In this document: positions 8,161 through 26,888 of the stretch, one piece after another
Layout: each line of letters begins with the position of its first letter
Numbering within the stretch: position 1 is the first letter of the stretch
Origin: an uncultured Chitinophagaceae bacterium
GTDB lineage: Bacteria > Bacteroidota > Bacteroidia > Chitinophagales > Chitinophagaceae
Direction of reading: 5' to 3'
NCBI GenBank assembly: GCA_903884185.1
Contig: CAISDV010000047.1
Span: forward strand, 1 to 32,033
DNA: 32,033 nucleotides
Notes under the pieces: model-generated
Told to the model about the DNA's origin: nothing
What the model saw: the letters and a program-made list of their open reading frames with translations, nothing else
Databases searched by the model: none
Program-made: the position numbers and the translations under genes

Positions 8161-8174
8161 CTGATTGATATCAG
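8161..8174. promoter_or_regulatory. FNR-type palindrome CTGAT-N4-ATCAG, distal site before usp gene
   Basis: CTGATTGATATCAG is a perfect 5-4-5 dyad matching the layout of the FNR box (TTGAT-N4-ATCAA). It sits in the gene-poor stretch 8025-8321, its centre about 154 bases before the usp start codon. A separate 13-bp palindrome (CCTGCT-C-AGCAGG, 8144-8156) lies directly upstream of it. Confidence 0.5.
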
Positions 8175-8195
8175 TGAACCCTGTTTTGATGAATA

Positions 8196-8209
8196 CTGAT
8201 GACAATCAG
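8196..8209. promoter_or_regulatory. FNR-type palindrome CTGAT-N4-ATCAG, proximal site before usp gene
   Basis: CTGATGACAATCAG has the same arms as the site at 8161, with a different spacer, 35 bases downstream and about 120 bases before the usp start codon. Two copies with conserved arms and varied centre are what a pair of CRP/FNR-family binding sites would look like. Confidence 0.52.
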
Positions 8210-8321
8210 GCGGCATTATTATCCCCGTCAGTATAGATCGGATGCAATGACACTACTTTCATTTTAATTATTGTCATTCTATGTTAAGCAAATTGTATCC
8301 TCTCTCATTAAAACTATGTAT

Positions 8322-9146
8322 ATGAAGAGATTCATCTGCCCTACCGATTTTTCGGCCGTTTCACAAAACGCCGTTATGTATGCAGCCGATATGGCCATGG
8401 CAACCAATGCAGAGTTGCTTTTGCAGCATACTGTAGAAATACCCATCATTGCTTCGGAGTACACGGCAATGCCCGAATTGCTGGATGATCTGGTGAAAGA
8501 AGCCGAACAGGAGATGTGCACACTGAGTAAAAAAGTAGTGGCCCGCACCGGCAATAAGATCACTATTCACACAAATGTAAAAATAGGGAGCCTGGAATAT
8601 GAATTAGAGGAGTTGTGCAAGCAGGAGCCTCCCTTCGCTATAGTCATGGGTACACATAGTCCCGGGGCAGCGGAGCGTTTTATAGTAGGAAGCAATACTC
8701 TCCATATTGTTCATTCTGCATATATCCCTGTATTGGTTGTTCCGCAGGGGGTTTCATTTTCAGGGATCAAAAGGATAGCACTGGCATTTGATGCGAAAAA
8801 TGAGGATATTGAAACTGCTACAGTGGAAATAATTAAAAAATGGGTTTTGACTTTTGGCGCAGAGATAGATATGGTATATGTGGCGCCAGATAACAATATA
8901 GAGTCAACCGCAGTATCCGGCTCTGTGGCTTTAGAGAAAGCATTATCTCAACTAAAGCCGCATTTTCATTTTGTGAATAAGGAACGCGTAGAAGAGGGAT
9001 TGAAGGAATTTATCAGTGAACATCATCCCGACCTGCTGATCGTTATACCACAGAGGCATCATTTCTTTTCGTCTCTTTTTCATAGAAGCGAATCAAAACA
9101 TTTGATCCTTCACCCCGGTTTACCATTGCTGGCAATCAAAGAATAA
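8322..9146 (+). CDS. Tandem-domain universal stress protein
   Basis: A 274-residue cytosolic protein with two UspA domains in a row. The first (about 1-145) begins MKRFICPTDFSAVSQNAV and ends with the nucleotide-binding signature G-T-H-S-P-G...VGSNT, then VPVLVVP-type strand (YIPVLVVPQG). The second (about 148-272) starts FSGIKRIALAFDAKNED and ends GLPLLAIKE but lacks the Gly-rich ATP motif, so probably only the first domain binds ATP. The start at ATG 8322 is chosen from the typical MKR-x-x-x-PTDFS opening; ATG 8316 would add two residues. Two FNR-type palindromes upstream suggest induction under oxygen limitation, as known for USP genes in other bacteria. A small conserved gene follows closely. 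Confidence 0.9.
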   Translation: MKRFICPTDFSAVSQNAVMYAADMAMATNAELLLQHTVEIPIIASEYTAMPELLDDLVKEAEQEMCTLSKKVVARTGNKITIHTNVKIGSLEYELEELCKQEPPFAIVMGTHSPGAAERFIVGSNTLHIVHSAYIPVLVVPQGVSFSGIKRIALAFDAKNEDIETATVEIIKKWVLTFGAEIDMVYVAPDNNIESTAVSGSVALEKALSQLKPHFHFVNKERVEEGLKEFISEHHPDLLIVIPQRHHFFSSLFHRSESKHLILHPGLPLLAIKE

Positions 9147-9185
9147 TTAATAAAATATTGTATGGAAGAATGTATCCCTGACATT

Positions 9186-9554
9186 ATGAAAAAAATAGAA
9201 ATAGAAATAGGCAATTCAATCAAATCGGTGCAGGAACAATTTAGTTCCCTGTTTCCATTTTTGAAGATCAATTTCTTATATGATGTGCTACCGCGAAAGG
9301 AGTTTTCTCATAATGGAGGAAAAAGTGAGCCTATTGCCCGCACCATGCAACATTTTGGTGGCTTCCGTGAAAACGGAGTGATCTATATGGATTGCAACAA
9401 AACGGTGTCGGAACTGGAAAAGGATTTCGAGAAAATGTTTGGCTTACACGTGGAGGTTTTAAGAAAATCCGGGACACTCTGGATCGAAACCTCATTAACC
9501 GACGACTGGACGCTGGAGCAACAGAACAGGGAGGGAGAATTATTAAGTGGTTAA
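9186..9554 (+). CDS. Small conserved protein of unknown function
   Basis: A 122-residue soluble protein. I do not recognise a named domain. It starts MKKIEIEIGNSIKSVQEQFSS, has a hydrophobic stretch FPFLKINFLYDVLPR and ends with a conserved-looking TLWIETSLTDDWTLEQQNREG. The rest is a mix of basic and acidic residues without membrane segments. It lies 39 bases after the usp gene on the same strand and is probably co-transcribed with it, which ties it to the same stress regulon. An ATG at 9162 would add eight residues; the later start gives a cleaner N-terminal strand. Confidence 0.7.
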   Translation: MKKIEIEIGNSIKSVQEQFSSLFPFLKINFLYDVLPRKEFSHNGGKSEPIARTMQHFGGFRENGVIYMDCNKTVSELEKDFEKMFGLHVEVLRKSGTLWIETSLTDDWTLEQQNREGELLSG

Positions 9555-11854: not shown

Positions 11855-12913
11855 TTAATAAGGCAGGCTGGCCAGCTTCTTCTCATCAAGGATAATGATC
11901 TTACTGCTTTCTATCTCAATCAGGCCTTCTTCTTTAAAATCGGATAAAGTGCGTATAAGAGATTCGGTGGCCACTCCTATTGACTGGGCAATATTGTTGC
12001 GGCTAATATTTAATACGGTTTCTTTTTTCCCCTCTTCTTTGTATTTATCAGCAAGCTGGATAAGTCCGTAAGCAACTTTCTTTCGCAACGAATTATAGGC
12101 AAGGTTCAGCAAAGCTTCTTCCTTTTCTAATATATCTTTTGTAATGATCCTTATAAATTGCTTCGATATTTTGGGGTCGTTGGTGATCAGCTGCAAAAAA
12201 TCCTGCTTTGGGATCAGCATCAATTCCGCCTCTTCCAGAACTTCGGCATTGTCTTTATAATTAGATTCTTCCAGGATGGCTGAGTATCCCAAAAAATCAC
12301 CTGGCCCTAATATTCCTGTGATCAATTCTTTTCCGTCGGAATTTATCCTGTACATTTTTATCTTCCCGCTCACAATAAAATATACTGCTTTTGGGTGCTG
12401 CCCTTCTGCATATAAAGCATGTTTTTTCTTATATTGGTATACTTCCCTTTCTTCAGAAACAAGTTGTATGGCTTCTGATTGTCCGGCCTCTTTAAGAAAA
12501 TGATTGACCGATGCCGCATTCACCAGCAGGAACTGTTTCAATGACTCTGCTTTTTTAAGCCTGATATCCACAGCGTTCAATAGCTCAATGCCATCAAATG
12601 GTTTGGTCAAATAATCATCCGCTCCCATCTCCATTCCCTTCCTGAAATCGGCTTTCTCTGATTTGGCTGTAAGGAACAGAAATGGGATGTTCGCCGTTTC
12701 TTCATGCTTTCCCAATAAATGCAAAACACCAAACCCGTCGAGTACAGGCATCATGATATCGCATACCACCAGGTCGGGCTTTTCCTGTAAGGCAAGTTCC
12801 ACACCGGTCTTCCCATTTTCTGCTGTAAAGACCTTGTAACCCGAAAGTTCCAGTATCTCTGAAACATTCTCTCTTACTTCAAAATTATCTTCAATGACGA
12901 GGATCTTTTTCAT
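11855..12913 (-). CDS. Response regulator with receiver and CRP/FNR-type DNA-binding domains
   Basis: A 352-residue transcription factor. Residues 1-120 are a receiver domain (VIEDN acidic pocket, phospho-acceptor D52 in VVCDIMMPVLDG, Thr in FLFLTAKSE, Lys in LTKPFDG). About 150-240 is a cyclic-nucleotide-binding fold (ALYAEGQHPKAVYFIVSGKIKMY, LGPGDFLGYSAIL). About 275-340 is a CRP-type winged helix. In its recognition helix (GVATESLIRTLSDF) the Glu and Arg that contact the G and A of TGA in CRP and FNR are kept; FNR's Ser is Ile. No N-terminal Fe-S cysteines are present, so oxygen sensing would come via phosphorylation or another ligand. It is 11 bases downstream of its likely kinase. Confidence 0.92.
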   Translation of the reverse strand: MKKILVIEDNFEVRENVSEILELSGYKVFTAENGKTGVELALQEKPDLVVCDIMMPVLDGFGVLHLLGKHEETANIPFLFLTAKSEKADFRKGMEMGADDYLTKPFDGIELLNAVDIRLKKAESLKQFLLVNAASVNHFLKEAGQSEAIQLVSEEREVYQYKKKHALYAEGQHPKAVYFIVSGKIKMYRINSDGKELITGILGPGDFLGYSAILEESNYKDNAEVLEEAELMLIPKQDFLQLITNDPKISKQFIRIITKDILEKEEALLNLAYNSLRKKVAYGLIQLADKYKEEGKKETVLNISRNNIAQSIGVATESLIRTLSDFKEEGLIEIESSKIIILDEKKLASLPY

Positions 12914-12924
12914 AACTATGGTAA

Positions 12925-14184
12925 TTAACTTGATTGTGGTATGCTGATAATAAAAGTAGTGCCCTCATTCAGTTTACTTTGCATACTGATATTTCCATTC
13001 ATGAGTTCCAAGTATTTAGTCACGATATGAAGGCCAAGTCCTGTTCCCTGTATATTGGCTGCATTCTTTGCACGGAAAAACCGCTGGAACAAATGCTGCT
13101 GGTCTTCCTCTGAAATACCGATACCACTGTCTTTAACTGTAACAGACATTAGTTCATTTGTAATGCTGCAAATAATTTGTATTTCGGAGCCTTCGGGTGA
13201 AAACTTGATGGCATTAGATATGAGATTGATCAATATATTTTTTAGAAGGTGTTTATCTATCCGAACATTGGCATTGCCATTATGCTGAGAATGTATCCGC
13301 TGCCCCGGTTTCAGCAACTGCTCCATTTCATTGATCGTTTCTTCCATCTCGGTAAAACATTCACCTGCACTAAGTGTTTCAATGACAGCCTTAATAGAGC
13401 CTTCTTCCAATTTGCCGAGTGAAAGGAAATCTTCGAGGATACTCTTCATCCCATCAACGGCTGTTTTTATTCTCTGTATATGTTTGCCTGATTTTTTTTC
13501 AGTACTTGTTTCATTATATTTTTCTAACAAAAAAGCCGACGACAAAATAGTGCTCAATGGTGTGCGGAATTCGTGCGATGCCATGGTCACAAACCGCGAT
13601 TTGAGTTCGTTCAGCTCTTTCTCTTTTTCCAGTGCATCGCTCAATTCATCTTTTGATTTTTCTAATTGTGCAAGGGTCTCGCGCAGCATTTTGGTGCGGT
13701 CACCTACTTTCTGTTCCAATTCAATATTCATCTGTTTCACTTGTGTTGCAACTTTTTCAAGTTCCTGTTTTTGGCGCAGCACTTCCACTTCTCCTTTTTT
13801 TCTCACGGTGATATCGATCACAAAGGCAATCACAAGGGTTTCCTTACCCATATGATAATAGGTGAGACTGATCTCTACGGGAAATTCATCGCCATTTTTT
13901 TTACGGGCAAACAGGTCCCTCCCCTCACCCATTCTTTTTTGTTCGGGGTGGTGATAAAACCCTTCGCGATGATGATTGTGGCTGGTGTGCACCCTGGTGG
14001 GTATCAATATTTCAACCGGCTGGCCCAATACTTCTTCCTTTGTATAACCAAACTGTATCTCAGCATATTTGTTAAAGTTGATGATCTTTCCAGTGTTGCC
14101 TGTTACCACGATCCCGATGGTTGCGTAATTGAACAATGCCTCAAATTGCCGGATATTATCACCATGTTTCTGATCTGTGCTCAT
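12925..14184 (-). CDS. Soluble PAS-domain sensor histidine kinase
   Basis: A 419-residue kinase without membrane helices, hence cytosolic sensing. Order: PAS domain (about 12-130; GIVVTGNTGKIINFNKYAE, FGYTKEEVLGQPVEILIP, DLFARKKNGDEFPVEISL), a coiled coil (about 130-195), HisKA with the phospho-acceptor H204 in MASHEFRTPLSTIL, then the HATPase domain (N box LLKNILINLISNAIKFSP, G1 VKDSGIGISEED, G2 GTGLGLHIVTKYLEL). The PAS ligand (haem, flavin or small molecule) cannot be read. The PAS domain has several His (HTSHNHHREGFYHH), compatible with haem or metal binding but not proof. It forms an apparent two-gene unit with the receiver-CRP regulator and lies directly downstream of the redox cluster. 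Confidence 0.92.
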   Translation of the reverse strand: MSTDQKHGDNIRQFEALFNYATIGIVVTGNTGKIINFNKYAEIQFGYTKEEVLGQPVEILIPTRVHTSHNHHREGFYHHPEQKRMGEGRDLFARKKNGDEFPVEISLTYYHMGKETLVIAFVIDITVRKKGEVEVLRQKQELEKVATQVKQMNIELEQKVGDRTKMLRETLAQLEKSKDELSDALEKEKELNELKSRFVTMASHEFRTPLSTILSSAFLLEKYNETSTEKKSGKHIQRIKTAVDGMKSILEDFLSLGKLEEGSIKAVIETLSAGECFTEMEETINEMEQLLKPGQRIHSQHNGNANVRIDKHLLKNILINLISNAIKFSPEGSEIQIICSITNELMSVTVKDSGIGISEEDQQHLFQRFFRAKNAANIQGTGLGLHIVTKYLELMNGNISMQSKLNEGTTFIISIPQSS

Positions 14185-14313: not shown

Positions 14314-15204
14314 CTATGTTGAAGATGAAATTTCCTGTCCTAATTTTCTGATCCTAAAAAGGCCGATCACCAGGAAGACAAGGATACCCCAAACAGTGAT
14401 CACAATAGAGTATGCCATCAATAACAGCCATAGAGGCGTTTTATTTCTTGTGGCAAAAAGTGTTCTCCTGTTGAATGTGTTTTCATGTAAATAAGTAGTT
14501 CCCCAGGGGACAGTTTGCTCTATCGATAAATTCCCATACTGGTCATTGTCTTCTACTTTTGCAACAAGGATAATATTTCCTTTTGCATCTCCCGGTATAC
14601 TATCTCTTTTAAAATCTGCCGAAGCCTGTCCCAAAGAGTCAGTAGTAAAACTTGGTTTTTCATTTACAGAGAGGTCGGCATCTAATCGCCTGATCGCAAT
14701 TTTTAGTTCTACACCTTTCACAGGTTTCCAGCTTGCATCTTTCATTTCCCATACTGTGGCAGTGATCTTTTTGTCGGCAGAAGTGTCCAGCAATATCTTC
14801 GCCCTGCTCATTGCCAGGTCTGCCTTTGCAGGTTCATATTTTTTATTCCCTTCAAATACAGCAAGAAAACTGTGCTTGACAGAAGCCTTCCAGCGGTCTT
14901 TCAAAGAAGGGGGTATCAAAGCGGTTGCTTCACCTTTCCCGTTTGTTGTCATATTAGCTATCAGTGCCCCTGCAGTATCTTTTTCCAAAAACAATTTGAT
15001 GTTTATATCACCAACAGGCTTGAACCTGCCATCTACCTTGGATTTTGTTTTTACCAACAAGTGTGGTACCTGGTTGTTATCAATAAAATAATTGATGGCA
15101 ATGCTCACATCATTTTTGGGCGCCTCTTGTGAAAAAGTGGCGTAGCACGATAAGAGAAAAATAAGTGATAAAAGTCCTGCTAATTTTTTATTGCTCGGTT
15201 TCAT
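14314..15204 (-). CDS. Exported Ig-like protein with C-terminal membrane anchor
   Basis: A 296-residue protein with an N-terminal signal (MKPSNKKLAGLLSLIFLLSC), two extracytoplasmic beta-sandwich repeats (about 30-120 and 130-235) and one C-terminal membrane helix (PLWLLLMAYSIVITVWGILVF) with a short basic tail RIRKLGQEI. Both repeats share a pattern like TTNGKGEATALIP and TTDSLGQASADFK, typical of Ig-like or Big-type linkers. No haem or metal motif is seen. Its start codon lies inside the last 17 bases of the NrfD gene, so the two are translationally linked. I infer a periplasmic scaffold or accessory subunit of the NrfD complex; no function is established. Confidence 0.75.
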   Translation of the reverse strand: MKPSNKKLAGLLSLIFLLSCYATFSQEAPKNDVSIAINYFIDNNQVPHLLVKTKSKVDGRFKPVGDINIKLFLEKDTAGALIANMTTNGKGEATALIPPSLKDRWKASVKHSFLAVFEGNKKYEPAKADLAMSRAKILLDTSADKKITATVWEMKDASWKPVKGVELKIAIRRLDADLSVNEKPSFTTDSLGQASADFKRDSIPGDAKGNIILVAKVEDNDQYGNLSIEQTVPWGTTYLHENTFNRRTLFATRNKTPLWLLLMAYSIVITVWGILVFLVIGLFRIRKLGQEISSST

Positions 15205-16495
15205 GTTGTTCAGTTATAGTTTCCTGGATAGGGATAATGGGAAATATCCTTGAAAAAATAGTGATCACTAACATCGCGCCAGCCAATGACCCCAGTGCAA
15301 TGGCCCATTCTTCCCAGCTTGGGAAATAATGACGATAACTATTGGGAACATTACTCATGGGAAGAAAGGGATGTAACAAAGTGGGTGTCACGATCAGGTA
15401 TCGTTTGAACCATGCACCCACCACTACCATCACGCCCACAATAAAAACGGGTAAAGGTTTTCTTCCTTTTTTAAATAAAAGAATAATGATGGGTAATAAC
15501 ATACCTACAATGATGGCAAACCAGAATAGAGGAGCAAATTCACCGGAAAAAAGATCATTCAAATGTGCTTCTTCGGGTTTCTTCATTTTAAATGCCGGCA
15601 CCAGGTATTCATTGATATTAAAATAAAGATATAAGAGTGCAAGGAGCACCACTATCCTTGCCATCTTTTCAAAATGAAGCGGCGTAATATATTTTTCGAG
15701 ATGATACGCTTTTCTGAAAACGTACATCGCTACCACTACTCCCCCTGCACCTACCAAAAAGGCTCCTGATATAAAATATGCCCCAAAATTGGTGCTGTCC
15801 CAACCGGGTCTGTATGTTGTTGCAAACAGCCAGGAAGTAACTGTATGAATACAAAATGCAACAGGTATAATGGTGATACAAAGTATATTGATCGCTCTCT
15901 CGCTTATTTTAAACTGTTCAGGAGTGCCCTTCCAGAAAGAACCCAGGAAACTATAAAATTTATACATAGCCGTTCCTGCTTTTGCTTTAAAGCGAAGTAA
16001 TATTTTAATATCAGGCAACAAGGGAAAATATAAAAGCAGAATGCTGATAAAAAAATAAGTGGTAATAACAATTACATCCCAAATGATGGGTGATTGAAGG
16101 CGCCCATGTGTAAATAAATTATAGAACCTTTCAGGGCTACCCATATCAACGATAATAATAACAGAAGCAAAAAAGATAGCCGAAACTGCAATGATCTCTG
16201 CGATCCTGGTAAGTGGCGTACTCCAATGAACATCAGCCAGCCTGAAAATGGCTGTGATCAATGATCCAACGAGGCTGATGGCTACAAAGAATACGAAATT
16301 CGAAATGTAGATGCCCCAGGATGCATAATCTCTCATAGAAGTAACTACCAGGCCATATCGTAACTGGCGATAATAGGCAAACATACCTACGAGACAAAAA
16401 GCGATCAAAACACCCGTCCATATTTTACCACTTTTGCCAAACTTTTGCGGAAGAAGGTCCTGTATTATTTTTTGTGTAGGTATTGAGTTCTCCAC
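15188..16495 (-). CDS. NrfD/PsrC-type quinol-oxidising membrane subunit
   Basis: A 435-residue polytopic inner-membrane protein with about ten helices, the usual NrfD/PsrC/ActC architecture. N-terminal polar segment, then helices such as WTGVLIAFCLVGMFAYY, followed by the conserved-looking YASWGIYISNFVFF and RIAEIIAVSAIFFASVIIIVDMGSPERF. It ends in FSRIFPIIPIQ. In this family the subunit exchanges electrons between quinone and a periplasmic four-cluster Fe-S protein, which here is the gene 16 bases upstream. Length matches the ten-helix ActC-like branch more than the eight-helix PsrC. No molybdopterin subunit is encoded nearby. Confidence 0.9.
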   Translation of the reverse strand: MENSIPTQKIIQDLLPQKFGKSGKIWTGVLIAFCLVGMFAYYRQLRYGLVVTSMRDYASWGIYISNFVFFVAISLVGSLITAIFRLADVHWSTPLTRIAEIIAVSAIFFASVIIIVDMGSPERFYNLFTHGRLQSPIIWDVIVITTYFFISILLLYFPLLPDIKILLRFKAKAGTAMYKFYSFLGSFWKGTPEQFKISERAINILCITIIPVAFCIHTVTSWLFATTYRPGWDSTNFGAYFISGAFLVGAGGVVVAMYVFRKAYHLEKYITPLHFEKMARIVVLLALLYLYFNINEYLVPAFKMKKPEEAHLNDLFSGEFAPLFWFAIIVGMLLPIIILLFKKGRKPLPVFIVGVMVVVGAWFKRYLIVTPTLLHPFLPMSNVPNSYRHYFPSWEEWAIALGSLAGAMLVITIFSRIFPIIPIQETITEQHETEQ

Positions 16496-16511
16496 GTTGA
16501 ATTATTTTAGG

Positions 16512-17441
16512 TCATTTTTTTTCTTTAGTATCAGTTTCTATTCCCGATTCAAATGGGAAGTTCCTGTTAACCGGTGGCAGGTAATAAACATTGGGTCTGG
16601 TGCCAAGGTCTTCCATCAGCCTGTAACCTCCTTTATCTTTGATCAGTTCACTGAAGCGGAATGTTTCTGCACCATTGCTAATGGTATCCTCGTTCATGTC
16701 ACCAAAAAAGAAGGTTCCATTAGGGCAGGCCTGTACACAATGTGGCAACTCACCTTTTCTCGCCATATCGGGACAAAAATCACATTTGCTTACTGTTCCT
16801 TTTTTCTGTGGCATACTGGTTTCACAGGAATAGGGTTTGCTGGCAGCTTCATCAGAGATCTCAGGTTTACCCCAGTTGAAGACCCTTGTAGAATATGGGC
16901 AGGCAGCCATACAAAACCTGCAACCGATACAACGGTCACTATCAATTAGAACAATCCCATCCTGTCTTTTAAATGTTGCATCTACCGGGCAAACCTTTAC
17001 ACAGGGTGGCTCATCGCATTGCATACAGGTAGTAGGTTGCCAGTAGGGTGCGGTGTATTCTGCATCTTTCATAGCATCTACTTTGATCCAGTTTTGCCCG
17101 GGGCTTAAACCATGTGCATGATCACAGGCTTCCTCGCATTTTTTTAAATTCTTACATCTTGAAAGATCGATCACCATCACAAATTTTTTACCTTCAATAC
17201 CTAATCTTTGTTCTGCATTCGTGAGCGGTGGGACCACAGAAACGGGCTTAAGGAATGCTTCATCTACTTCTATTATTTCACCATCAACAGATAACAGCTT
17301 CACTTTTTTCCCGGAGGCTTTTACTACTTCATCCGCTCCCGCTTCAAAAGGGTCTTTGGGTGAACATCCTACAGCCATTGCTGCAGCAGCCGTGAAGCCG
17401 GTTAAAAGGAAATCTCTTCTCGAACTGTTTTCTTGTTTCAT
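16512..17441 (-). CDS. Tat-exported four-cluster Fe-S lipoprotein (NrfC/HybA type)
   Basis: A 309-residue periplasmic electron carrier. The signal has twin Arg (SSRRDFLLTG) and a lipobox (AVGC, C26), so it is a Tat-exported lipoprotein. Cysteines form four cluster motifs: a first, irregular one (C-x5-C-x3-C in SRCKNLKKCEEAC), then CMQCDEPPCVKVCP, CIGCRFCMAACP, and CDFC with the C-x3-CP in HCVQACPNG. This is the organisation of the Fe-S subunits that pair with NrfD proteins, usually taking electrons to or from a molybdoenzyme or cytochrome. Residues 44-64 (GKKVKLLSVDGEIIEVDEAF) form a linker that is repeated in the small protein upstream. The NrfD gene begins 16 bases after its stop. Confidence 0.92.
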   Translation of the reverse strand: MKQENSSRRDFLLTGFTAAAAMAVGCSPKDPFEAGADEVVKASGKKVKLLSVDGEIIEVDEAFLKPVSVVPPLTNAEQRLGIEGKKFVMVIDLSRCKNLKKCEEACDHAHGLSPGQNWIKVDAMKDAEYTAPYWQPTTCMQCDEPPCVKVCPVDATFKRQDGIVLIDSDRCIGCRFCMAACPYSTRVFNWGKPEISDEAASKPYSCETSMPQKKGTVSKCDFCPDMARKGELPHCVQACPNGTFFFGDMNEDTISNGAETFRFSELIKDKGGYRLMEDLGTRPNVYYLPPVNRNFPFESGIETDTKEKK

Positions 17442-17463
17442 TGAAATTTATTTTGCTTGAAGC

Positions 17464-17751
17464 TTAAGCGCTTGTTTTGTTGATCCAGTTTTGAAGTTCC
17501 TTATCGGTTATTTTTTTCCTTTCTGTTGTCATCAATGACTCATCGATCTCTACCAGCTTACCGTCTTGCGTAAGCATCTTAATGGTTTTTCCTTTGCTTT
17601 CCGGCTTGCAGGCAATCACGTTTTTTTTGTTTGAAAAAGGGAACCTGGTTGCAGCCTTAATAGCTGCAAAGGCCGATAGGATGCCTATTCCCCAAACAAT
17701 TTTTCTTCTTGACGGGAGTTTTTTTTGCTCTATCTCTTTCTTGTTTTCCAT
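17464..17751 (-). CDS. Small twin-Arg membrane/exported protein sharing a module with the Fe-S subunit
   Basis: A 95-residue protein. It has a charged N-terminus with S-R-R-K (residues 14-17) followed by a hydrophobic helix (IVWGIGILSAFAAIKAA), so it is either Tat-exported or anchored by one helix. The C-terminal half carries GKTIKMLTQDGKLVEIDES, which aligns without gaps to the segment just after the signal in the Fe-S protein encoded 22 bases downstream. There are no cluster cysteines (only C48). It looks like a partial copy or a paired chaperone/anchor of the Fe-S subunit. I know no named family for it. Confidence 0.7.
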   Translation of the reverse strand: MENKKEIEQKKLPSRRKIVWGIGILSAFAAIKAATRFPFSNKKNVIACKPESKGKTIKMLTQDGKLVEIDESLMTTERKKITDKELQNWINKTSA

Positions 17752-17825
17752 ATTAATATCTTTAACCCGGCGTAAAACTATAACAGCATAGGAGCATGAA
17801 ACATGACATTAGTTAACCAAAAAAC

Positions 17826-17837
17826 TGATTTAAGTCA
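17826..17837. promoter_or_regulatory. FNR-type near-match TGAT-N4-GTCA
   Basis: TGATTTAAGTCA differs by one base from the TGAT-N4-ATCA palindrome. Its centre is about 80 bases before the start codon at 17751. The nearer palindrome before the first gene of the cluster lies about 81 bases from its start codon, so the placement is nearly the same. It sits between the terminator at 17855-17879 and the second half of the cluster. Confidence 0.35.
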
Positions 17838-17854
17838 TATTAATTTTAAAACCC

Positions 17855-17879
17855 AAAAAGGCCCGGGAATTCCGAGCCT
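17855..17879 (-). terminator. Rho-independent terminator after cytochrome c gene
   Basis: On the minus strand AGGCTCGG pairs with CCGGGCCT (eight pairs, one G-U) around a five-base loop, followed by a run of five T. It lies 25 bases after the cytochrome c stop codon and 104 bases before the next gene on the strand. It likely divides the redox cluster into two transcripts. Confidence 0.65.
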
Positions 17880-17903
17880 GCTCTTTTTCACATATTCTAT
17901 ATT

Positions 17904-18311
17904 TTATTTTTTCAATGTACGGCAGTACACTACAAGGCTCCAGATATCTTCAGCATCAGGGAGTTTCTTTTTAAACGAAGGCATATCTTCTCTTCCCTCC
18001 GATATTTTATAAAACAACGAACCATCTGATTGTGATTGGGCAACAGCTTTCGACAGATCATTGGGTTGTGTTTTTAATTGAGCTGCTTTCGGTCCATCGC
18101 CGAGGCCACCTTTTCCATGACATGAGGAGCAATGCACACTCCATAATGCTTTGCCTGCTGCAATGGATTCTGCGTTTGATTTTACCGGGTTGGGTGTCTT
18201 CGCATTTTTATCAGGAACAGGCCATGGCTTTGGTTGCTGCGTGGCCACAAAAGCAGCGCAAAAAAAACTTATCGTTAGAATTGAAACAACTGCCGTTAAT
18301 TTACTTTTCAT
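17904..18311 (-). CDS. Periplasmic monohaem cytochrome c
   Basis: A 135-residue class I cytochrome c. Signal peptide (residues 1-about 25), a Pro-rich linker (PKPWPVPDKNAKTPNPVK), then the haem site C61-S-S-C64-H65 in HCSSCHGKGGLGDGPKA and the axial Met M110 in SEGREDMPSF. The C-terminal helix DIWSLVVYCRTLKK is typical. The short Pro-rich start resembles cytochromes that dock with membrane oxidoreductases. It sits between the barrel gene and the Fe-S/NrfD genes and would be the soluble carrier between the inner-membrane complex and the outer cytochrome proteins. A terminator follows it. Confidence 0.93.
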   Translation of the reverse strand: MKSKLTAVVSILTISFFCAAFVATQQPKPWPVPDKNAKTPNPVKSNAESIAAGKALWSVHCSSCHGKGGLGDGPKAAQLKTQPNDLSKAVAQSQSDGSLFYKISEGREDMPSFKKKLPDAEDIWSLVVYCRTLKK

Positions 18312-18382
18312 ATATGTGATTTAATTAGTGAACAATTTTGTTAATATCCATGCCAACATAGCTATTTAGCATTTCGTTCCAT

Positions 18383-19324
18383 TTAGAAATTCCATAATCT
18401 CGTAATATTGAACCCTATCAGGAACTGCCCCCTTGTAAAATCATTTTGATTAAAAAGATTATTATTCTGTGGAAGGATATCGCTATAATTACCTGCAAAT
18501 ACTTCAAAATCATGCCCGCTTGATTTCATTTCCAGTCCAAAGCTGATATTCGGCCTTGGATTATTGGTAGGATGTTGAGAAAGTGGCTGGTCATAGTTAA
18601 AAATGATCGCCGATTTTGGAGAGAATTTATACCTGCCTGAAAACGAGATGGCATAATGATCATTGTTCCATTTTTCCATCACTTTCCCTGAAGCATCTGT
18701 ATATCCTTCTAAATTATTGAAGTGTGTGAGGCTGGGGCTTACTTGTAATGAGAATTTTTCGGAGAACTTTCTTGCAAAAATGATCTGGTTAAAGAAGCTG
18801 AGCCTGTCCGAAAACGTCACGAATAAAGTGGTATTATCTTTTATCCTGGTATCCATCACTAAATTTCCATAATAAGTGATACTCAAAGGTATCTTCCCGT
18901 CTTTGGTTTGTTTTAATAAAGCATACTTCAGGTTCCAGTCAACCTGCATCCTGTCGTTCGTTACACCAAATCCAACTTGCAGGTTGTTCCTTGGCGTATA
19001 GCTAAAGCCAAGCCTCATTTTGGCACCTGCAAACAAACCAAATAAGTCTGTAAAACTATGATCCGTTGTTCCAAATCTGTGCTGTATAACAAATTCGAAG
19101 GTTCCTTTAATGGGCACCATGACAGTTTGGTTATCTATCAGGAAGTTGCCTTCAAATGTATTTTTTACAAATGATTTTTTCTTTACCACAGGTGCTGCAG
19201 AATCCTGCGCCTTGTTTGCAGAATCTTGCGCTACCAGTGAACCCAGGCTAAAACAGAACGCCACCATAAGGCATATACGCACAGCCCCTTTAATTGATAG
19301 CAAATGAATATTTATTTTTTTCAT
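18383..19324 (-). CDS. DUF5777-like outer-membrane beta-barrel
   Basis: A 313-residue protein with a signal peptide (MKKINIHLLSIKGAVRICLM to LVAQ) and a string of alternating-pattern amphipathic strands (FEFVIQHRFG, RLGFSYTPRNNLQVGFGVTN, DWNLKYALL, LSITYYGNLVMDT, FSGRYKFSPKSAIIFNYDQP) ending in an aromatic C-terminus (FLIGFNITRLWNF), the hallmark of an outer-membrane barrel. The opening QHRFGTTDHSFTDLFGL is what I associate with DUF5777. The function of the family is not known. Its place between two cytochrome-type genes suggests it acts with them, for example as a porin partner for electron transfer or a haem-protein platform. Confidence 0.8.
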   Translation of the reverse strand: MKKINIHLLSIKGAVRICLMVAFCFSLGSLVAQDSANKAQDSAAPVVKKKSFVKNTFEGNFLIDNQTVMVPIKGTFEFVIQHRFGTTDHSFTDLFGLFAGAKMRLGFSYTPRNNLQVGFGVTNDRMQVDWNLKYALLKQTKDGKIPLSITYYGNLVMDTRIKDNTTLFVTFSDRLSFFNQIIFARKFSEKFSLQVSPSLTHFNNLEGYTDASGKVMEKWNNDHYAISFSGRYKFSPKSAIIFNYDQPLSQHPTNNPRPNISFGLEMKSSGHDFEVFAGNYSDILPQNNNLFNQNDFTRGQFLIGFNITRLWNF

Positions 19325-19336
19325 AGCCAGTTTTTT

Positions 19337-19735
19337 TTAATTGTTTTTAGCCCCCTGTTTGATCCATGCCAGTATGAGGCCATTAATATTGGATGGATTG
19401 TTTGTGCTTCCTGCGGGCATTGTAACGGAACGTTTACCTGTGAGCCATAAATACACTTCGCTGTTTGCCGGGTTTGCAGTACTGACAAAGTTTCCATTTA
19501 CTAAAGCAGTATAAGCTGTTGCAGAAGATAAATTAGGAGCAACCGTTCCGCCATGACATCCGCTAATACTGCAGCTTTTGGTTAAGAGTGGTACAATGTC
19601 TTTTGAAAAGCTAACAGTAGTAGTCACCGCAACCGAGTTATCTACGATCACAGTTGTTGTTTTACTGCAACCTTGCATTACAAGTAGTGAAGCCATGAAC
19701 AGTAACAATCCTATTCCAAATATTTTCTTTGACAT
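19337..19735 (-). CDS. Lipoprotein with C-x4-C-H haem-like motif
   Basis: A 132-residue lipoprotein (lipobox MQGC, C23). Residues 55-61 are C-S-I-S-G-C-H, a CX4CH spacing instead of the usual CX2CH. A downstream Met (M106, SVTMPAGS) could be the axial ligand. The fold order (FSKDIVPLLTKSC...GCHGG, then MPAGS and a last helix INGLILAWIKQGA) is that of small cytochrome c-like domains common in Bacteroidota. Covalent haem is therefore likely but not proven, as CX4CH is attached only by some maturation systems. It lies 12 bases before the barrel gene and would be co-expressed. Confidence 0.78.
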   Translation of the reverse strand: MSKKIFGIGLLLFMASLLVMQGCSKTTTVIVDNSVAVTTTVSFSKDIVPLLTKSCSISGCHGGTVAPNLSSATAYTALVNGNFVSTANPANSEVYLWLTGKRSVTMPAGSTNNPSNINGLILAWIKQGAKNN

Positions 19736-19772
19736 GGTCTTTATTTTTAATGATTGAAAGAACAGCCAAATA

Positions 19773-21119
19773 TTATTTCTTGAATGTCAATAGCAAATTG
19801 GGTTGGATACCATGCTGGTTATTTGATTTGTTCCAAATAGCCAGGCCAAAAGGCTGATCCTGTAACCCTGTAAAATCGATATCCTGTTTCAGTACATCTG
19901 CTGTTTTCAAAGCACGTGTATATTCAATCACCCAACCTGAACCGGTATAAACAGCCTGGCATGAAATATCCGCGCGACCGCCAATCAATGGAGAAGCGAT
20001 ATAGCTTGGGAAACATTTAGGACCATCGCCACCTGTAACAGGATTACCTGCTCTTTGATAGTCGGTTCCAACATTTGGATCTATAGTTCCTCCATTATAA
20101 GTTAATACACCAGTTGAACTTACGCCTGTAATTTTTGCAGCTTTGCCACCTGCCAGTGTATCTTTTGCTAAAACATAATAATAATTGGTTGCATTGGGCA
20201 TGATCCACATTGGAACGGTTACTGAAGCACCTGTTCCATCTAATTTTAAAGTTTGCCTGTTATTAGATGCTCCCTGAGCAGCAGCAGTTGTATAAGTTGG
20301 TGCAAATGGCCAGGTTGCAGAAGCCCCTGTTACTACAAGATCATCCACATGGCGCCCATTACCCGAACCACCAGTTAGATTAGTAACTGCCGGACCGCCG
20401 GCCCAATCCTGGTAATTATCATCCATTTGGCCAAACACAAGGTCCCTGCTCAAATGCGCCCACCACATATCAATTTTTTCACTTGCTCCATTTGTATAAT
20501 GGTTTCCACTATTAGAATTTGATTTCATGACTGCGGGTGTTACAGAATAATCCAGGTAAGGAATAAATACATGGCAGGTTGCATAACATGTTTGTGTTAT
20601 GAATTTGGGCGTGGAGTTATCGACATTCCACAACATGGCAAATTTATCTTCGCCAAAACCATCTCTTGTTAATACTCCATTAGCGTCAAAGGTTTTACTG
20701 GTGGGTTCTTGGGCCCAGCCTGTTTTACCAGCCACATTAGCAGACGGATCAAAATACCATGTTGCTACATACACACTTTTATCTGCATCAGCATATTCCA
20801 ATAAGAAGTAAATGTTTTTGTCGTCGTACATAGAACGGATAGTTGCCGGATAAGTTTGCCCGTTATATCCTGTGAAGAGGCCATTACCCGGATCGGGCAC
20901 TGTTGGCACAATACTTAGTTTCGTAGCATTGCTCCACATAGCGTCCACTACTCCATCAATCACTGGCGGAGTGGTTGTTTTTACAGATACCAATGTTGTT
21001 GAACCGGTTCCGGAATCCGGGATGATCACCTGGTCGTTTTTTGTACAACTTACTGCGTATCCTACTATGCAGATCAGTGTAGACATCACCCAGAATTTAA
21101 TACTTTGAAAAGGTTTCAT
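19773..21119 (-). CDS. EB_dh-type haem-binding lipoprotein
   Basis: A 448-residue lipoprotein (lipobox AVSC, C25), the first gene of the redox cluster. The body resembles the ethylbenzene-dehydrogenase gamma/cytochrome-binding (EB_dh) domain: TPPVIDGVVDAMWSNATKL at the start, IRSMYDDKNIYFLLEYAD, then DKFAMLWNV and, at the end, SGWVIEYTRAL and PFGLAIWN. Known members bind haem b with Met and Lys ligands in molybdoenzyme complexes. In addition C178-Y-A-T-C182-H183 is a CX3CH motif, a non-standard spacing for covalent haem. No molybdoenzyme alpha subunit is present. Two FNR-type palindromes precede the gene (21195 and 21216). Confidence 0.82.
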   Translation of the reverse strand: MKPFQSIKFWVMSTLICIVGYAVSCTKNDQVIIPDSGTGSTTLVSVKTTTPPVIDGVVDAMWSNATKLSIVPTVPDPGNGLFTGYNGQTYPATIRSMYDDKNIYFLLEYADADKSVYVATWYFDPSANVAGKTGWAQEPTSKTFDANGVLTRDGFGEDKFAMLWNVDNSTPKFITQTCYATCHVFIPYLDYSVTPAVMKSNSNSGNHYTNGASEKIDMWWAHLSRDLVFGQMDDNYQDWAGGPAVTNLTGGSGNGRHVDDLVVTGASATWPFAPTYTTAAAQGASNNRQTLKLDGTGASVTVPMWIMPNATNYYYVLAKDTLAGGKAAKITGVSSTGVLTYNGGTIDPNVGTDYQRAGNPVTGGDGPKCFPSYIASPLIGGRADISCQAVYTGSGWVIEYTRALKTADVLKQDIDFTGLQDQPFGLAIWNKSNNQHGIQPNLLLTFKK

Positions 21120-21194: not shown

Positions 21195-21206
21195 TGATAC
21201 ACATCA
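21195..21206. promoter_or_regulatory. FNR-type palindrome TGAT-N4-ATCA, proximal site before redox cluster
   Basis: TGATACACATCA, with flanking A and A, has the layout of an FNR/CRP-family box. The centre is about 81 bases before the cluster's first start codon. A TAATTTAG (minus strand, about 45-52 bases before the ATG) could be a Bacteroidota -7 element, which would put the site near -40. Confidence 0.5.
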
Positions 21207-21215
21207 ATCGTGAAA

Positions 21216-21229
21216 TTGATGCTAATCAG
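21216..21229. promoter_or_regulatory. FNR-type palindrome TTGAT-N4-ATCAG, distal site before redox cluster
   Basis: TTGATGCTAATCAG lies 22 bases (two helical turns) centre to centre from the site at 21195, away from the cluster. It is closer to the classical TTGAT-N4-ATCAA than the other copies. CATCAAT and ATTGATG between them also form a seven-base inverted repeat (21202-21221). Confidence 0.5.
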
Positions 21230-21363: not shown

Positions 21364-22260
21364 GGGATAAAATTCATAGAAATTATTGAGATATCAAGGG
21401 ATACGGCTGAGAAAGGATACAAGCATTTAAAAAAGATCGGGGTATTGGGATCGGTGCCGGGAAAGGGATATTTTGTAAAGAACATTGAAGTAAAACAGCA
21501 GTTGAAGATCTTTCTTCTCTTTAATAAACTCAGCTATCATAAAAAGATCATTTATGATGCATTCGTTTCCTACCTGGGCGATATGGCATCTGTTGATTTT
21601 TATATTTATAATAATGATTTTGATTTTTTTAAGCGGCTCATCCTGAATAAAAAAGACGACTATACACATTATGTCATCATCCCGCATTTTCTTGATGGAG
21701 GTGAAAGTGCGCATGAGATCATTAATACCATTCCAAAAAACAGGCTGATATTATTAGACAAACTTGTGAATGGCGTTGACGGTGAATATGGTGCTGTCTA
21801 TGAAAATTTTGAAAAAGATATTTATGATGCCCTGGAGCAGGCACTTTCACGCCTGGAAAAATACCATACGCTGAAAATTATTTTTCCGGAGTATACTTAT
21901 CACCCGCAGGAGATATTAAAGGGGTTCTACCGGTTTTGCCGGCAGTATGCTTTTAATTATAAAGTGGTACATGATATTGCCAATGAGACCATACTGGAAG
22001 GGGTAGCTTATATCAACCTCATGGAGAACGACCTGGTGATACTGATAGAAAAAATACTGGCCACCAAACTAAAAGTGGGAAAGAATGTGGGCGTGGTTTC
22101 TTATAATGAAACACCCCTGAAAAAGATCATCCTCAATGGTATCACCAACATTTCTACAGACTTTCATATGATGGGCGAAAAAACCGCCAAGCTAATACTT
22201 GAACAATCTGCAGAACATGTGGAAATTCCTTTTTCACTGACCATCCGCTCCTCTTTATAG
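21364..22260 (+). pseudogene. GntR-type regulator lacking most of its winged-helix domain
   Basis: The sequence matches the Bacteroidota regulators that fuse a GntR winged helix to a LacI-like ligand domain. The open frame begins after a TAA at 21361. It contains only the last part of the winged helix (ISRDTAEKGYKHLKKIGVLG, then the wing SVPGKGYFV), and no ATG or GTG occurs before a TTG at 21445, past the recognition helix. The ligand domain (about 240 residues; YDAFVSYLGDMASVDF, HYVIIPHFLDGG, NRLILLDKLVNGV, NVGVVSYNETPLKKI) is intact to its natural end. It probably no longer binds DNA. From the TTG it would make a 271-residue protein. A short frame from 21194 (MIHINRE) resembles the usual opening of this family and may be a remnant of the missing head. 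Confidence 0.65.
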
Positions 22261-26390: not shown

Positions 26391-26888
26391 TTATTTCTGT
26401 GCAGAGGCTTTGGCTTTATAACTCCAGCTAAAAACAAATTTTGCCACTTCTTCTCCCTGTTCATTTACTCCAATACTTGTACAATGTACGCTTGTTACTT
26501 CGCCTGTTTCTCTTGTTTTTGCGATCGCCTCTTCAATTTCTTTACCCTGGTTGCAGGTAAATATGATCTTGCCAATTGCCTTTTTATAAAACTCACCTTC
26601 CATTTTCACCACTAACATACTTACGCCGGGTTTCAGTTGATAGGTTTGCCCGAATGCCAGGATACCTGTACTCAATTCTGCAGCCATTGAGAGTACAGCA
26701 AAATAAACAGAGCGGAAAGGATTTTTATTTACCCAGCTAAAACGCACACTCACGGAGCTTGCTCCCGCAGTAAGTGATTGGATCCTCAGCCCCGAAATAA
26801 ATCCCATAGGTAATTTCTGCAAAAGGAATAGCCGGTACTTTACCGGGTTGGTGACCTGGTTTTTGAAAAGTTCGAAACGGGAGTTCAT
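26391..26888 (-). CDS. DUF4442-like hotdog-fold protein
   Basis: A 165-residue cytosolic protein with the features of the DUF4442/thioesterase-like hotdog family: an N-terminal helix (KYRLFLLQKLPMGFISGLRIQSLTAGASS), then a long helix AVLSMAAELSTGILAFGQ flanked by beta strands (VSVRFSWVNKN, SMLVVKMEGEFYKKAIGKIIF) and the end strand AKFVFSWSYKAK. No catalytic residue can be assigned with certainty. Its ATG overlaps the TAA of the thioredoxin-like gene by one base (TAATG), so the two are translationally coupled. Confidence 0.82.
   Translation of the reverse strand: MNSRFELFKNQVTNPVKYRLFLLQKLPMGFISGLRIQSLTAGASSVSVRFSWVNKNPFRSVYFAVLSMAAELSTGILAFGQTYQLKPGVSMLVVKMEGEFYKKAIGKIIFTCNQGKEIEEAIAKTRETGEVTSVHCTSIGVNEQGEEVAKFVFSWSYKAKASAQK

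Follow-up and report, generated by a model that had tools for sequence, protein, structure and literature searches.

A putative molybdenum-free NrfD-type quinol dehydrogenase encoded with a DUF5777 barrel module in an uncultured Chitinophagaceae bacterium

Pairs of an NrfD-type membrane subunit and an iron-sulphur (Fe-S) protein that work without molybdenum are described for the Nrf, Dsr, Nhc and Mcc complexes in passages of PMC8076601. In the relevant section of PMC11434368, SirCD of Shewanella appears as another molybdenum-free pair of this type, and Cbc4 (CbcSTU) of Geobacter as a combination of the Fe-S protein CbcT, homologous to DsrO, with a c-type cytochrome and the membrane protein CbcU, which is termed there a b-type cytochrome. 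An initial annotation of the DNA analysed here had stated that NrfD/Fe-S pairs are known mostly from molybdoenzymes or from alternative complex III (ACIII), which in view of these systems was overstated. This DNA, called the window below, is a stretch of 32,033 nucleotides (positions 1 to 32,033) of contig CAISDV010000047.1 of an uncultured Chitinophagaceae bacterium (assembly GCA_903884185.1). It carries eight genes, designated A to H, that we tentatively read, with slightly less than even confidence, as coding for a menaquinol dehydrogenase that works without molybdenum and comes with a dedicated electron-acceptor module in the outer membrane.

As in SirCD-type systems, an NrfD subunit, a [4Fe-4S] protein and a c-type cytochrome are encoded together, and no molybdopterin subunit is found among the eight genes, as the annotation had noted. 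Open reading frame (ORF) calls and Pfam matches also confirmed that the set lies on a single strand and belongs to the families first named. It occupies positions 14314-21119 of the minus strand, in the 5' to 3' order A-B-C-D-E-F-G-H:

19773-21119, minus strand: A, lipoprotein with the EB_dh/NxrC fold, 448 amino acids (PF09459, 69.3 bits, cut-off 33.3)
19337-19735, minus strand: B, small monohaem lipoprotein cytochrome, 132 amino acids (CX4CH motif; zero Pfam matches)
18383-19324, minus strand: C, DUF5777 outer-membrane beta-barrel, 313 amino acids (PF19089, 246.3 bits, cut-off 23.1)
17904-18311, minus strand: D, periplasmic monohaem cytochrome c, 135 amino acids (PF13442, 46.9 bits, cut-off 27; CXXCH motif)
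17464-17751, minus strand: E, protein of 95 amino acids with homology to the N-terminal segment of F
16512-17441, minus strand: F, [4Fe-4S] lipoprotein of the twin-arginine translocation (Tat) type, 309 amino acids (Fer4_11, 73.6 bits, 1.6e-20)
15188-16495, minus strand: G, NrfD-type integral membrane subunit, 435 amino acids (PF03916, 108.3 bits, cut-off 25.8)
14314-15204, minus strand: H, exported protein with an immunoglobulin (Ig)-like part and a C-terminal transmembrane (TM) helix, read from the sequence, 296 amino acids (Big_1, 22.1 bits, below the cut-off of 34.9)

The first 17 bases of H lie within the end of G, and D is split from E by a gap of 152 bases that contains a regulatory box. 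Because of this gap, the eight genes read as two operons, A-B-C-D and E-F-G-H. At a second place in genome G033 (locus L155), A-B-C-D was found without E-H.

The conservation of the set was followed in a pattern scan of a genome collection, which yielded 421 relatives of F at a loose threshold; the best 80 were kept and, with six more, form a sample of 86 loci, 54 of which extend 5 kb or more to either side of the Fe-S gene. F served as the sampling query and is hence present in 54/54 by construction; the other genes were counted on the same strand, up to 5.5 kb upstream and 6.5 kb downstream. D and G were present in all 54 loci, H in 52, E in 51, C in 47 and B in 46, although these counts are not independent, since two pairs of loci (L087/L094 and L097/L105) come from one genome each and the sampling favours the closest relatives of F. 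The barrel was accompanied by the CX4CH mini-cytochrome and the EB_dh lipoprotein (A-B-C) in 26 loci and by the mini-cytochrome and a YceI lipoprotein in 18, while two loci had B-C, one had C alone and seven had none of these. In an even draw of 296 genomes from the phylum, F was matched at E <= 1e-30 in 58 genomes and at E <= 1e-90 in seven, including the present one, and in all seven a barrel homologue lay within a few kb of F. The linkage of the barrel to the redox genes claimed by the annotation was therefore upheld, and the recurrence of the set in other genomes is far above chance. In the cultured Emticicia aquatica CECT 8858, the eight genes are all present in identical order, and its genome has a strong PF00384 match.

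Duplications were also seen among the sampled loci. A second, diverged F-G-H plus A follows the first cluster in L062 (15024-20900) and L075 (15625-20839), with F at about 50% identity, and a six-haem cytochrome lipoprotein (L117, 3518-4600, genome G103) adjoins a cluster with doubled F-G-H-D.

The independence from molybdenum was examined over the whole genome, which comprises 2.95 Mb in 188 contigs with a completeness estimated by the tool at 100%. Neither PF00384 nor MoeA_N gave any match there, and each of the two profiles matched in 11 of 14 control genomes. Synthesis of the molybdenum cofactor is therefore probably missing. Neither search found a molybdoenzyme partner elsewhere in the genome, and the suggestion that the set is self-contained is supported. 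The only other NrfD match in the genome lies within a complete ACIII (G000:C29, recognised by ORF order and sequence; we take its genes to be the Act subunits), followed by an aa3 oxidase that is also the single PF00115 match.

Among 56 other genomes carrying the Fe-S gene (those of 50 of the best 80 loci plus six further genomes), PF00384 was matched at E <= 1e-10 in 24, only more weakly in 20 and not at all in 12, although many of them are by title draft metagenome-assembled genomes (MAGs), in which absence is weak evidence. Since 20 carriers have weak matches only and 12 none, co-occurrence of the set with a molybdoenzyme is not obligatory, even if strong matches do accompany it in the remaining carriers. 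Neither outcome that the annotation had named as refuting, a molybdopterin subunit in every genome with the set or a barrel not conserved with the redox genes, was observed. Many of the weak matches fall in frames of about 1000-1070 amino acids, a length that would fit ActB, and the strong ones may include proteins other than molybdoenzymes; the best match of G086, just past the 1e-10 line, lies in an ORF read as NuoG (L165). When three ORFs under strong matches (L166, L167 and L168) were used as probes against the 86 loci, none was detected at E <= 1e-10.

With regard to the core proteins, F has 15 invariant cysteines besides that of the lipobox, which would be enough for several clusters. 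Its best NCBIfam model is DsrO (183.4 bits, below the cut-off of 200) and its best PDB match is 2vpw_B. The comparison of family profiles with hhalign aligned E to the N-terminal segment of F (probability 96.9, E 1.4e-10), so that E is a stand-alone relative of this segment without the clusters. The best NCBIfam model for G is DsrP (135.5 bits, below the cut-off of 350), and its four PDB matches are NrfD/ActC subunits of the ACIII type. G is about 30% identical to the ActC of its own genome, which scores lower than G against DsrP (49.6 bits). For H, comparison with solved structures gave one weak match (E 0.011) and no usable relative.

One haem motif each is found in nearly all homologues of A, B and D, and none in C. 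The CX3CH motif of A (residues 178-183) is present in 37 of 39 homologues, fragments included; the two exceptions are most likely the C-terminal fragments in L063 and L080, because all 37 full-length rows of the alignment have C178, C182, H183 and H436 without exception. The structures of A and C were predicted as single chains. The model of A (predicted local distance difference test score, pLDDT, 81.9) matched EbdC (2ivf_C, Z 19.3) and NxrC (7b04_C, Z 19.1), followed by CBM9 sugar-binding domains (Z <= 14.6), so that both the EbdC fold and the profile score, 69.3 against a cut-off of 33.3 bits, place A in the EB_dh family. The haem b of EbdC is bound without covalent bonds; the CX3CH motif of A suggests covalent attachment.

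The haem motif of B is CX4CH in 66 of 70 homologues, CX2CH in three and neither in one, and its profile gave weak PDB matches to FoxE (E 4.9e-5), a one-haem cytochrome c and the alpha subunit of hydrazine synthase. In D, residues C61, C64, H65 and M110 are invariant in 83 aligned rows, and the relatives in the PDB are cytochrome c552 and 6f0k_E, the monohaem subunit of a quinol:cytochrome c oxidoreductase. As judged from its sequence, D is an ordinary His/Met cytochrome c. Its conserved haem site and its match to the oxidoreductase subunit would favour quinol oxidation over quinone reduction.

In the model of C (pLDDT 87.8) there are 12 long strands whose faces alternate between polar and hydrophobic, a pattern that is weak in strand 175-186. 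Its nearest folds (Z 16.8-17.9) were KdgM (4pr7_A, Z 17.9), FapF (5o68_D, Z 17.9), a COG4313 channel, NalP and NanC, so that C resembles narrow porins and autotransporter barrels, and the score of 246.3 against 23.1 bits places it within DUF5777. Among the conserved residues, the prediction places R83, K133, Q180, K186 and Q194 on the lumen side and H82, Y109, R185, Y244 and H271 on the outer face. A folded multihaem cytochrome is too large for a 12-strand barrel, and no multihaem cytochrome gene lies within the eight-gene cluster. The analogy with porin-cytochrome conduits drawn in the annotation thus found no support, because the barrel is 12-stranded and A, B and D are monohaem proteins.

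The barrel family is wider than the core, with a relative at E <= 1e-15 in 96 of the 296 phylum genomes. In a tree of 61 barrels (36 A-type and 25 YceI-type), from which barrels below 37% identity and rows with no partner or both partners were left out, only two partner changes were counted versus 19.6 in shuffles, and 0 of 500 shuffles were as low. The barrels of A-type and YceI-type modules are separate lineages, as expected if the barrel co-evolves with its lipoprotein partner, and free interchange of EB_dh and YceI proteins was rejected on the basis of this split. Eleven barrel loci outside the core were inspected: eight (L158, L160-L164, L169 and L170) have short YceI-like neighbours, judged by eye, L155 and L156 have A-B-C, and L157 has B-C-D. 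The Pfam test for YceI, made for L064 only, gave 27.0 bits (cut-off 23.7).

Other genes were seen near some of these modules. In L118 (15560-17306), B-C-F-G-H-D is followed after a few kb by genes for a small cytochrome c and for a protein assigned by Pfam to the COX1 family; in L156 (11815-13606), a small cytochrome and COX1-like pair, judged by its N-terminus, follows A-B-C; and in L049, a ScdA/hemerythrin protein is encoded downstream of H.

The core and the barrel module share a regulatory box. The elements relevant to regulation in the window are as follows:

21195-21206 and 21217-21228: two CRP/FNR-type boxes, TGAY-N4-RTCA, upstream of A
17826-17837: CRP/FNR-type box upstream of E
12925-14184, minus strand: I, PAS histidine kinase (Pfam), directly downstream of the cluster
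11855-12913, minus strand: J, fusion of a response regulator with a DNA-binding protein of the CRP/FNR type (Response_reg, cNMP_binding, HTH_Crp_2)

A first count with the textbook FNR consensus TTGAY-N4-RTCAA showed no clear enrichment. The motif TGAY-N4-RTCA was chosen by an unbiased dyad count and found upstream of A in 26/36 loci (0.9 expected), of D in 27/82 (1.4) and of E in 20/76 (1.0), for which choice and count are not independent because they used the same loci; the regions upstream of the YceI lipoprotein, unused in the choice, carry it in 21/25 (0.6 expected). Upstream of internal genes it stays near expectation (B 1/66, C 1/76, F 2/93, G 0/88, H 0/74). In the window, where no box stands in front of D, there are 11 boxes versus 2.75 expected, and genome-wide the W-flanked box was counted 101 times versus 47 for a reversed control. 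The type of box and regulator points to a possible low-oxygen signal.

A universal stress protein gene (8316-9146) is likewise preceded by two TGAY-N4-RTCA boxes (8162-8208) and, because of this same box type, the neighbourhood of the cluster may form one regulon. Upstream of A, the ORF at 21445-22260 encodes a LacI-type sensor domain (Peripla_BP_3, 20.2 bits, cut-off 26.5) with no DNA-binding part visible. At 9162-9554 the window encodes a 130-amino-acid protein without a Pfam match, which at 37% identity is also found near the cluster in L049, L067 and L073, and at 26391-26888, 5 kb from the cluster, a DUF4442 protein, for which 11 of the 86 loci contain relatives (46-53% identity).

The export signals of the lipoproteins were compared after one of 68 B and six of 90 F rows had been set aside for a missing cysteine. 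At position +3 after the lipid cysteine (Cys25 of the lipobox in A), lysine is found in 36/37 A, 58/67 B and 1/84 F proteins, and an acidic residue at +4 or +5 in 30/37, 33/67 and 12/84, respectively. By a crude rule, 23 of 25 YceI lipoproteins have the cysteine, and 16 of these 23 have at least two acidic residues at +2 to +6. The signals of A and B are similar to the surface-export signal of Capnocytophaga, C-X-K-(D/E)2-X in the part of PMC5080379 that describes it, although the match is incomplete.

On this basis, G would oxidise menaquinol in the inner membrane and pass electrons to the multi-cluster Fe-S lipoprotein F and from there to the His/Met cytochrome D in the periplasm, with E and H in accessory roles within the inner-membrane complex. 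D would then reduce the monohaem lipoproteins B and A, which would share the outer membrane with the narrow barrel C and deliver the electrons to an acceptor located there or further outside. A second module, paralogous to this one and made of the YceI lipoprotein, B and C, would be attached to the same core in relatives. Core and module would be induced together, probably when oxygen is scarce, by a regulator of the CRP/FNR type, for which the adjacent I/J pair is a possible candidate. We infer the quinol substrate, electron direction, haem binding, subunit contacts, the location of A and B, the low-oxygen signal and the acceptor.

Several points weigh against a menaquinol dehydrogenase with its own outer-membrane module. 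No electron acceptor is encoded in the cluster, and none was identified. As modelled, three monohaem proteins and a 12-strand barrel would offer no visible electron path across the outer membrane, and few A or B proteins have the complete K-(D/E)2 signal, which makes their surface exposure uncertain. The genome already has an ACIII and an aa3 oxidase for quinol oxidation. The set is patchy in the phylum, since close Fe-S homologues occur in just 7/296 genomes, and 7/54 loci lack a same-strand barrel within the range counted: in these, B and C lie 8 kb upstream (L042) or on the other strand (L110), the only barrel is a distant relative (26-31% identity) encoded on the opposite strand (L074, L082 and L107), a second cluster follows the first (L075), or no barrel was seen (L057). 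Finally, the regulator acting at the box could answer a signal other than oxygen, and few other loci have the I/J pair close to the cluster (I at 49-53% identity in 4/86, J at 47-57% in 5/86).

An alternative that we regard as possible, if unlikely, is that E-F-G-H and D form a stripped-down ACIII feeding the aa3 oxidase under another growth condition, with A-B-C a separate small-molecule module under the same regulator. The ActC-type solved relatives of G, the resemblance of D to the monohaem subunit of such a complex, the one haem-copper oxidase match in the genome and the seven loci with core and D and no nearby same-strand barrel agree with this, as does L155, where the module stands apart from the core. 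However, D stays with A-B-C precisely in that locus, ActA, the large domain of ActB, ActD and ActF are missing from the cluster, and a complete ACIII is present in the same genome. It is improbable that A is instead a terminal reductase or oxidase of a small soluble compound, such as a nitrogen oxide, with C as its pore and the NrfD core as electron supply. KdgM and NanC, among the nearest folds of C, are porins that pass anionic sugars (oligogalacturonate stands in the title of the KdgM structure), the polar residues predicted to face the lumen would suit a pore, and the COX1-family and small cytochrome genes behind the module in L118, like the pair in L156, and the ScdA/hemerythrin protein of L049 would fit such an enzyme. 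Against it stand the other conserved residues of C, predicted to face outwards (with a weak inside/outside call for strand 175-186), and the paralogous modules, which have YceI in place of A and no haem motif in the YceI sequences inspected. To our knowledge, EB_dh relatives of known function are electron carriers and not catalytic, and no COX1-family nitric oxide reductase was seen in the genome, because its sole COX1-family match is the aa3 oxidase.

The flow of electrons could also be inward, A and B oxidising an external donor such as Fe(II), D delivering to the oxidase and the NrfD core balancing with the quinone pool. FoxE, which has a role in Fe(II) oxidation, is by profile the best solved relative of B, but the match is weak, concerns a generic small-cytochrome domain and is close to those of hydrazine synthase and another monohaem cytochrome; moreover, a His/Met cytochrome would be a poor donor to menaquinone, so that we hold this direction to be very improbable. 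With little confidence we also consider a minimal, all-monohaem conduit, in which B docks on or in barrel C like a split Cyc2 and passes electrons to a surface-exposed A that shares descent with the gamma subunits of molybdoenzymes; if true, these Bacteroidota would have a molybdenum-free, switchable way of dumping electrons outside the cell.

If the preferred menaquinol dehydrogenase with an outer-membrane module is right, environmental Bacteroidota, patchily but across the phylum, would own a dedicated and switchable exit route for electrons. Such a route is invisible in routine annotation, because, among the NCBIfam models shown, none assigns a name to one of the eight genes with a score above its cut-off. 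Its function could be tested in the cultured carrier E. aquatica. In addition, the fold of a haem subunit of the molybdoenzyme family occurs here in a genome in which the enzyme was not found.

The literature search returned no description of the cluster, no paper on DUF5777 and none joining NrfD with YceI, or ethylbenzene dehydrogenase with NrfD and cytochrome c, in Bacteroidetes. Passages of PMC6344600 report putative extracellular-electron-transfer genes, including new porin-cytochrome and Cyc2 types, in Bacteroidetes MAGs from a bog lake and do not tell whether the present cluster is among them; passages of PMC6295460 and PMC7894505 contain nothing on it. The DUF5777 and YceI-like operons of Bacteroidota share the barrel family with the cluster and frequently include a small lipoprotein cytochrome; they differ in having no NrfD core within the 4.5 kb shown around them and a YceI-like protein in the place of EB_dh.

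Mtr and Pcc conduits likewise have a barrel gene beside cytochrome genes, but their barrels are wide, with 20 strands or more, and their cytochromes multihaem, in contrast to the 12 strands and monohaem cytochromes found here. A shares its fold and EB_dh family match with the gamma subunits EbdC and NxrC, from which it differs in being a lipoprotein with a conserved CX3CH and in that no molybdopterin alpha partner was found (0 PF00384 matches in the genome). The likeness to ACIII (ActABCDEF) lies in the identity of G with the genome's own ActC and in D, which resembles the ActE-type 6f0k_E, whereas the pentahaem ActA, the large, molybdopterin-like domain of ActB, ActD and ActF have no counterpart in the cluster. 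The top-scoring models for F and G are DsrO and DsrP of DsrMKJOP, which also contains an Fe-S/NrfD pair without molybdenum; however, both scores are below the curated cut-offs, the cytochromes are different and no DsrM, DsrK or DsrJ is present among the eight genes. SirCD and CbcSTU, in which CbcU is NrfD-like, are set beside the cluster by description and not by sequence; they share the module of Fe-S and membrane subunits, and the cluster differs in its exclusively monohaem cytochromes, the Ig/TM subunit, the small E and the barrel module. As molybdenum-free NrfD/Fe-S modules such as DsrOP and SirCD are already known, the core adds another member to a known type of quinol dehydrogenase, with its activity predicted from sequence. 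What is new is the coupling of this core to an EB_dh/YceI-cytochrome-barrel module under a shared box.

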